From a virus, in IMG/VR virus record IMGVR_UViG_3300046010_010941, positions 1-34,194 of that record: a stretch of DNA of 34,194 nucleotides, one strand, 5' to 3'. The position numbers were made by a program, and so were the translations under genes. The notes under the pieces were generated by a model. It was not told the origin of the DNA and did not search any database. It worked only from the letters and a program-made list of their open reading frames with translations. Positions 1,097-2,082 of the stretch are shown piece by piece. Each line of letters opens with the position of its first letter. The stretch's first letter is position 1.

Positions 1097-1115
1097 ACTT
1101 TTTTTACTGTGTCAA
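1087..1115 (-). promoter_or_regulatory. Sigma70-like promoter upstream of the 43-aa gene
   Basis: On the minus strand a perfect -35 box TTGACA (1115-1110) is followed by a 17-base spacer and TAGGAT (1092-1087), which matches the -10 consensus at 4 of 6 positions including the key first TA and last T. Transcription would start near 1080, between hsp20 and the 43-residue membrane gene. The -35 box lies in the last codons of hsp20. Confidence 0.45.
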
Positions 1116-1550
1116 GAGATTTTCGGCATTATTACCAATTTGAATTTTGCGTGGTTTTCTTTCATCAGGAATAACGTTCTCCAACTTAACCACAAGTGTA
1201 CCATCTTGTAGTTCTGCTCCTTTAACAACAACAGTCTCGGCTAAAATAAATTTATGTGAGAAACTTCTTTTAGCGATTCCACGATGAACATATTCACGTT
1301 TTTCTTTTTCTTCGGCAATCGCTCCAGAAATAATTAGTTTGCAATTTTCGTAAGTGATATCGATCTCTTCACGTTTGAATCCTGAAAGAGCAACTTCAAT
1401 AGTCCAATTGAAGTCATTTTCTCTAATAAGATTGTATGGAGGATAAGTCTGAGGTTTAAATTGTAGGGTATCAAACTCTTCAAAAGTGCTAAGAAGTCGA
1501 TCAAAACCTACAGTGGAAGGAAGCAATGATTTTCCGTATGATAGAGTCAT
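1104..1550 (-). CDS. hsp20: Small heat shock protein, Hsp20/IbpA family
   Basis: The 148-residue product has a YPPYN segment (about 37-41), an alpha-crystallin domain core (ALSGFKREEIDI, GTLVVKLENV) and a C-terminal I-x-I tail motif (IQI). This is the IbpA-type layout. Such proteins hold unfolding proteins as an ATP-independent chaperone; in T4-like marine phages they are a common accessory gene. A good AAGGAG ribosome binding site lies 7 bases before the ATG at 1550. Upstream is a structured region with an intrinsic terminator and a late-promoter match, so expression probably depends on a promoter at 1669-1676 and on read-through, or on an unrecognised promoter. The 43-residue membrane gene follows. 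Confidence 0.92.
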   Translation of the reverse strand: MTLSYGKSLLPSTVGFDRLLSTFEEFDTLQFKPQTYPPYNLIRENDFNWTIEVALSGFKREEIDITYENCKLIISGAIAEEKEKREYVHRGIAKRSFSHKFILAETVVVKGAELQDGTLVVKLENVIPDERKPRKIQIGNNAENLLTQ

Positions 1551-1580
1551 ATTAGTTCTCCTTGAATTAAGCGAGTTAAT

Positions 1581-1606
1581 AAAAAAACCAACCCAAAAGG
1601 CATTGG
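1581..1606 (-). terminator. Intrinsic terminator downstream of regA
   Basis: On the minus strand the sequence CCAATGCC, TTTT, GGGTTGG forms a stem of about 7 bp with one bulged G and a four-base loop (1606-1588). It is directly followed by seven T (1587-1581). This is a standard Rho-independent terminator for transcripts coming from the clamp-regA operon. It lies before hsp20. Confidence 0.75.
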
Positions 1607-1647
1607 TCCGAGGAATTGTTAACCAGCCTTAACCTCGGACTGCTGGT
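1606..1647 (-). ncRNA. Probable H-type RNA pseudoknot between regA and hsp20
   Basis: In the minus-strand RNA four arms occur in the interleaved order A-B-A'-B': ACCAGC (1647-1642), GUCCGAGG (1640-1633), GCUGGU (1627-1622) and CCUCGGAC (1613-1606). A pairs with A' over 6 bp and B with B' over 8 bp. The helices cross, so together they make an H-type pseudoknot with connectors of 1, 5 and 8 bases. The 3' end abuts the terminator. A separate small hairpin (UCCC-UUC-GGGA or a UUCG loop) lies just upstream at about 1651-1661. Function is unknown; it may be a leader of hsp20 or a 3' structure of the regA transcript. Confidence 0.55.
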
Positions 1648-1668
1648 CCCATCCCGAAGGGAGGATTA

Positions 1669-1676
1669 TATTTATT
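1669..1676 (-). promoter_or_regulatory. T4-type late promoter match before hsp20
   Basis: The minus strand reads AATAAATA, which fits the NATAAATA form of the T4 late promoter recognised by gp55. It overlaps the stop codon of regA. The transcript would start near 1662, pass through the pseudoknot and terminator, then reach hsp20 at 1550. Confidence 0.45.
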
Positions 1677-2082
1677 TAGCCGTGGTTTGAGTTTTTTTGC
1701 CAATATTATATTTGGCAATTAATTCCCAATCATCCTTCTCTTTATGAGACAAGATTTTTATTTGAGACAGAGAAACTGTCGGTTCCTTTGTCGCATCTTT
1801 GTTTACAATTTTCAACAGTTCCCAATCTTCCAATAAATTGGTAATTGTATTTCTTCTTGCGATATCATTTTCTGTAATGTCGGTGGGTTTTCCATCTAAA
1901 GAAAACAATTCTTTAAAGTGTACGATATAATAATTACCCCTCTTGTGTAGAATGTGGCAAGATTGATAAAGAACTTTTTCTTTTTTAGACGCTACTCCAA
2001 TACGAGTCAGTGTTTCTCTAACTTTAAGAAAGTCATCTTTTTCTTGTAATGATACTTCAACCATATCTTCTATTCTGATCAT
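1672..2082 (-). CDS. regA: RegA translational repressor of early genes
   Basis: The 136-residue product aligns by eye with T4 RegA (122 residues) over its whole length: DFLKVRETLTRIG, KVLYQSCHILHKRG and YYIVHFKELF near the N-terminus, and LLEDWELL about residue 85, ending near KYNIGK. RegA binds early-mRNA start regions, including those of the clamp genes, and blocks translation. The small extra length is an N-terminal MIRIEDMV segment and a short C-terminal tail. The ATG at 2082 overlaps the end of gene 62 (ATGA), as in the T4 order 45-44-62-regA. A pseudoknot and a terminator follow the stop. Confidence 0.95.
   Translation of the reverse strand: MIRIEDMVEVSLQEKDDFLKVRETLTRIGVASKKEKVLYQSCHILHKRGNYYIVHFKELFSLDGKPTDITENDIARRNTITNLLEDWELLKIVNKDATKEPTVSLSQIKILSHKEKDDWELIAKYNIGKKTQTTAK

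Follow-up and report, generated by a model that had tools for sequence, protein, structure and literature searches.

A covarying pseudoknot and a ROSE-like element in the putative leader of a late hsp20 gene in phages

The ROSE elements of Pseudomonas, which have been proven in the laboratory, are composed of two hairpins with a U(U/C)GCU motif in front of a small heat-shock protein gene, and hairpin II melts on heating; mRNA stabilisation was proposed for hairpin I by the authors of that study (PMC3669281). A stem-loop at the extreme 5' end can stabilise a transcript, as discussed in the same work, where a role in folding or stability is also attributed to the 5' hairpins of ROSE elements (PMC3669281). 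In T4, the gene 32 mRNA carries a pseudoknot close to its 5' end, in the leader, where an unstructured UUAAA/UAAA stretch follows it and the ribosome-binding site lies downstream (PMC535899). The manA RNA motif (RF01745) is a complex RNA that has been reported to lie upstream of ibpA chaperone genes and that also occurs in T4-like cyanophages (PMC2864571).

The window considered here is the whole stretch of viral DNA that was analysed (34,194 nucleotides, IMG/VR record IMGVR_UViG_3300046010_010941). On its minus strand, 1672 is the last position of regA and 1550 the first of hsp20. From 5' to 3', the RNA between the two genes can form a hairpin, an H-type pseudoknot, a second hairpin from which a G bulges and, after a U-rich stretch, a weak hairpin. 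The features of this locus, all on the minus strand, are given below.

Positions 1672 to 2082, minus strand: regA, the upstream gene, encoding a translational repressor (Pfam PF01818, E 4.7e-46; PHROG 242).
Positions 1669 to 1676, minus strand: AATAAATA, a late promoter motif of the T4 type that lies 21 nt before GGGATGGG, found in the sequence.
Positions 1649 to 1664, minus strand: 5'-terminal hairpin CCUCCC-UUC-GGGA-U-GG, which contains UUCG, from the predicted fold.
Positions 1642 to 1647, minus strand: 5' arm of stem S1, ACCAGC, covarying with 1622-1627.
Positions 1633 to 1640, minus strand: 5' arm of stem S2, GUCCGAGG, covarying with 1606-1613.
Positions 1622 to 1627, minus strand: 3' arm of stem S1, GCUGGU, covarying with 1642-1647.
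Positions 1614 to 1621, minus strand: loop 3, UAACAAUU; in relatives this loop is rich in A, which makes up 67% of its letters summed over 102 cores.
Positions 1606 to 1613, minus strand: 3' arm of stem S2, CCUCGGAC, directly adjoining the next hairpin and covarying with 1633-1640.
Positions 1588 to 1606, minus strand: ROSE-like hairpin I, CCAAU-G-CC-UUUU-GG-GUUGG, with bulged G1601, from covariation and alignment to ROSE_3 hairpin I.
Positions 1558 to 1575, minus strand: ROSE-like hairpin II, CUC-G-CUU-AAUUC-AAGGAG, from alignment to ROSE_3.
Positions 1104 to 1550, minus strand: hsp20, the gene under control in the reading given here, encoding an IbpA-type small heat-shock protein (Pfam PF00011, E 9.4e-18).

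An inverted repeat, TAGTGTAGGA...TCCTACACTA followed by CTTTTTTT, was also observed on the plus strand at 1058-1104, and is a possible terminator aimed into the 3' end of hsp20.

The crossing of S1 and S2 is that of an H-type pseudoknot with loops of 1, 5 and 8 nt. An A-rich loop 3 is common among H-type pseudoknots that dock this loop in the minor groove. The nested fold of the 96 nt in the window is unremarkable (z -1.23) and a single sequence proves nothing, so that the evidence has to come from relatives. A RegA search retrieved 80 viral contigs, and in the DNA 3' of their regA genes the layout was found to be kept while the letters of the arms differ. Two pattern scans of the viral collection added at least 120 stretches each, and a profile search placed hsp20 in 272 loci. 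With a crossing-helix search, 86% of 142 distinct relatives reach a pseudoknot score of at least 24, against 5.6% of dinucleotide shuffles. When 5' and 3' halves of different relatives were joined, only 12% of the chimeras reached this score, the 100% from which this fall is counted being true by selection of the cores. The 102 distinct cores contain 49 different S1 helices and 67 different S2 helices.

Thirty-two cores that share the geometry of the window were aligned. In this alignment 95.7% of the possible S1 and S2 pairs form, compared with 27-44% when the partner is slid, although selection of cores by a pairing search inflates the percentage paired and not the variety of compensating changes. 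That variety is large: in 116 cells both partners have changed, where shuffles give 39 ± 5, and the covariation score is 0.676 against 0.168 ± 0.020. S1 alone and S2 alone each pass the covariation test, so both crossing helices of the H-type fold have their own support, and the pseudoknot is real. The first-pass annotation had read these arms, and a small UUCG hairpin next to them, from the window alone. The predicted hairpin is present at 1664-1649, the pseudoknot elements all lie on the minus strand where they had been placed, covariation is far above both shuffle and slide controls, and the compensatory changes on which the proposal had been made to depend were found in about a hundred distinct cores. 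Few bases within the knot are invariant in the 32-core alignment, which argues against a small-molecule pocket.

No Rfam family was found to cover the pseudoknot. The Rfam searches matched tRNAs and a sub-threshold ROSE_3 element and no other family, and the covariance model of manA (RF01745) matched none of 22 records, the window included, at E values up to 10. A blastn search with the leader of a relative against named phages returned short matches only, at the ribosome site or by chance, and the pseudoknot was not found in any cultured phage. A bacterial origin of the leader was considered and rejected, as CGGGATGGGAAC-N50-80-AACTCGCTT, a narrow pattern, had no match in a genome search across 84,980 species of bacteria and archaea.

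The late promoter motif places the pseudoknot in the mRNA of hsp20. AAUAAAUA at 1676-1669 overlaps the regA stop codon, and 89 of 141 distinct leaders have a late motif of the form NATAAATA no more than 45 nt upstream of GGGATGGG, compared with 3.9% of shuffles. Its start lies 18-22 nt upstream of GGGATGGG in 63 of the 141 and 29-30 nt upstream in another 14, and this fixed spacing in 77 distinct leaders bears out the earlier suggestion that a late promoter precedes an hsp20 leader. From the spacing of T4 late promoters we infer that transcription begins near 1663, at the base of the 5' hairpin; TTGACA-17-TATACT, observed in some relatives, indicates a similar start. The 3' side of the 5' hairpin is the GGGAUGGG box, which is common to relatives, the RegA-selected ones included. 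As GGGATGGG and AACTCGCTT were preset in some searches, their conservation is partly due to selection, and both also occur in many RegA-selected loci. Two other GGGATGGG boxes of the window (29248 and 14650, minus strand) were examined as a second copy of the leader and rejected, since they fall within coding sequence. The best reading of the region is that of a 5' untranslated leader of a late-transcribed hsp20 mRNA. In leaders that lack a further domain, described below as domain B, the pseudoknot begins at most about 20 nt from the predicted 5' end and lies near hairpin I, which it abuts in the window.

The 3' part of this leader resembles a two-hairpin ROSE RNA thermometer. The best Rfam match of the leader is ROSE_3 (RF02523; 26.4 bits, E 0.0011), and the match spans the hairpin, the linker, the ribosome-binding site and the start codon. 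All ROSE_3 scores lie below the Rfam gathering score of 43, with 31.7 bits for the best relative, and the leader is therefore not filed as a member of ROSE_3. As in ROSE_3 and Pseudomonas ibpA (RF02523; PMC3669281), two hairpins precede a small heat-shock gene: hairpin I carries AUGCC...GGGU with an unpaired G, and the U(U/C)GCU motif (CUCGCUU, 1575-1569) lies opposite the Shine-Dalgarno sequence (AAGGAG, 1563-1558) in hairpin II. The gene directly 3' of the element, hsp20 (PF00011), is itself a small heat-shock protein gene. The stable hairpin I, 5' of the thermosensing hairpin, also covaries, with 96.8% of its pairs formed in relatives against 33-56% when slid. Unlike the Pseudomonas elements, the leader belongs to a phage gene and has a late promoter motif instead of sigma-32, and unlike ROSE_3 it scores below gathering, adds a 5' hairpin and a pseudoknot, and its thermoregulation is predicted.

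With the ROSE_3 model, 10 of 26 records of the group of the window gave a match at the hsp20 leader (E 4e-7 to 7e-5), and in the cyanophages S-ShM2, S-RIM44, S-CAM1 and P-SSM4 the best match of the whole genome lies just 5' of hsp20 (E 0.005-0.28). Of 280 phage hsp20 leaders, 261 contain hairpin I together with [CT]T[CT]GC[TG]...GGAG, among them leaders from Pelagibacter phage, cyanophage and Pseudomonas jumbo phage genomes. CUCGCU occurs in 247 of these 261 and CTCGCT, CTTGCT or TTTGCT in 260, where the search expression admitted [CT]T[CT]GC[TG] only. The ROSE-like element precedes hsp20 in freshwater phages, marine cyanophages, pelagiphages and jumbo phages. With such an RNA before hsp20 the phage probably makes the chaperone when warm, and heat, which had been named earlier as a possible input, is plausible by the resemblance to ROSE. 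By nearest-neighbour folding, which ignores the non-canonical pairs that make up part of the ROSE pairing, the Shine-Dalgarno sequence is predicted to be no better hidden than with shuffled upstream sequence. As in FourU thermometers, the predicted fold allows the U7 of the window to base-pair with AGGAGAAC; unlike in those, the U-run is not conserved among the phage leaders.

Among named phages (L322-L329), cyanophages, pelagiphages and a Pseudomonas jumbo phage were observed to have short ROSE-like leaders that lack the GGGATGGG box upstream of hsp20, apparently unreported so far. In Pelagibacter phage HTVC008M (L322, about 460-600) hairpins with CUCGUAAAU loops lie upstream of the thermometer and might be a different structured leader.

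Taken together, the region is probably a late hsp20 leader with a 5' hairpin, a pseudoknot and a ROSE-like thermometer, in which the knot and the 5' hairpin may form a cap. The hsp20 mRNA leader would be transcribed from the late promoter that overlaps regA at its 3' end. At low temperature the weak hairpin II, with CUCGCUU facing AAGGAG, would hide the Shine-Dalgarno sequence, and on warming it would open and Hsp20 would be made; we infer this temperature control from the anatomy of the leader. The 5' hairpin and the pseudoknot, stacked directly on the thermometer, may act as a rigid cap or scaffold, protecting the mRNA at its 5' end and preventing mispairing of the thermometer. This role of the pseudoknot is the weakest step and is offered tentatively, as somewhat less probable than not; it is favoured because 5' stem-loops can stabilise transcripts and because the 5' hairpins of ROSE elements are credited with a part in folding or stability (PMC3669281).

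The pseudoknot may instead be a translational operator to which Hsp20, gp32 or RegA binds and represses hsp20, as gp32 does on T4 gene 32; this is the main rival reading, which we regard as unlikely. The gene 32 leader provides the precedent of a 5'-terminal pseudoknot with a downstream ribosome-binding site (PMC535899), and the knot studied here, whose shape is preserved while its letters vary, likewise sits close to the 5' terminus in the mRNA of a T4-like phage, with the ribosome-binding site downstream. However, the gene is a different one, and a structured thermometer follows the knot where T4 has the unstructured stretch. The comparison with gene 32, already drawn in the first-pass annotation, holds for the architecture only; a link to gp32 was not found, nor was one to RegA, which had been put forward as the input and gains no support. 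Hsp20 itself is a candidate ligand, because E. coli IbpA binds its own 5' UTR and represses its own mRNA through it, for which Arg93 is required (PMC10474464), and the equivalent arginine is invariant in phage Hsp20 (198 of the 198 proteins readable at that position). The equivalent of Tyr34 is aromatic in 203 of 203. In contrast, the equivalent of Lys98, which is also required in E. coli IbpA, is not conserved among phage Hsp20 proteins, and the known target of IbpA is its ROSE-bearing 5' UTR and is not a pseudoknot.

A transcription attenuator or riboswitch, with the pseudoknot as the sensor and a hairpin plus U-run as the terminator, is very unlikely, although this layout had been suggested for the window. 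There a hairpin at about 1606-1588 is indeed followed by U7, a late promoter motif lies upstream, and GACCAGC pairs with the 3' arm of hairpin I in the minimum-energy fold. Yet U-runs of at least six follow hairpin I in only 2 of 159 leaders, and a terminator scan of the window did not report the hairpin and U7 site, so the hairpin and the U7 stand as observed while the terminator does not. Since the U-run is nearly unique to the window, termination is not a conserved role. The alternative pairing of the S1 arm with the hairpin I arm was found to be impossible in relatives inspected by eye, for example L016 and L008. The arms vary freely, and few bases are invariant that could make a ligand pocket. 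The lesson is that the hairpin and U-run of one genome may pass for a terminator while relatives show another role.

It is extremely unlikely that the element is a separate small stable RNA that ends at the U-run and has no bearing on hsp20: in the window, a separate promoter motif, a compact fold and the U7 would suit one, but the U-run is not conserved, and in the hsp20 loci what directly follows the element is either the thermometer with hsp20 or a small ORF with hsp20. Equally improbable is a plain 3' end of regA, whose structures merely protect or end that message, as the location directly after regA would allow, because the leader is also found in hsp20 loci selected by RNA pattern regardless of regA and has the promoter motif at fixed spacing directly upstream.

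Four types of leader were observed, namely the thermometer only, the pseudoknot with the thermometer, domain B with the thermometer, and all three. Neither the pseudoknot nor domain B is present in 26 of 72 RegA-selected loci. Many hsp20 leaders thus do without the pseudoknot, which is therefore dispensable for thermometer function in general. Domain B is an RNA of 60-120 nt that follows the GGGATGGG box or the pseudoknot and precedes the thermometer in about 110 leaders (for example L248:247-339 and L049:1932-1994). Its conserved letters are ACCUUAGG, GGCGUCCG and GUAA, it has a covarying pseudoknot of its own, and an Rfam search gave no match to it. The conserved unpaired letters of its loops make domain B a candidate riboswitch or protein-binding domain, and it looks more like a binding domain than does the knot of the window. 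A conserved ORF of about 61-75 aa was also found between the leader and hsp20 in 48 of 269 loci (L215, L104, L093 and others), with the consensus ..IDTIQGAKTxFVKTFVxNEExxKPLQTYIDAQxxFAK..; the members scanned showed no significant Pfam, NCBIfam or PHROGs family.

The thermometer leader is ROSE-like and of a known kind, and the pseudoknot module is new. The latter is a well-supported structural RNA missing from Rfam, of which dozens of natural variants are available. In a literature search that was mostly without subscription papers and without bioRxiv preprints, control of phage Hsp20 by an RNA thermometer was not found. More speculatively, and with a good deal of doubt, the leaders might form a two-sensor family that is widespread in phages, in which a ROSE-type thermometer is joined to the unreported pseudoknot module, with or without domain B, which would respond to a further input, for instance free Hsp20 or a different phage protein, and set the dose of chaperone during virion assembly. 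In the cyanophages compared in PMC3037559, hsp20 belongs to the core genes. If the proposed reading is true, phage chaperone control would be independent of the host heat-shock sigma factor, and T4-like phages of lakes and seas would time or dose their chaperone by temperature within the mRNA itself.
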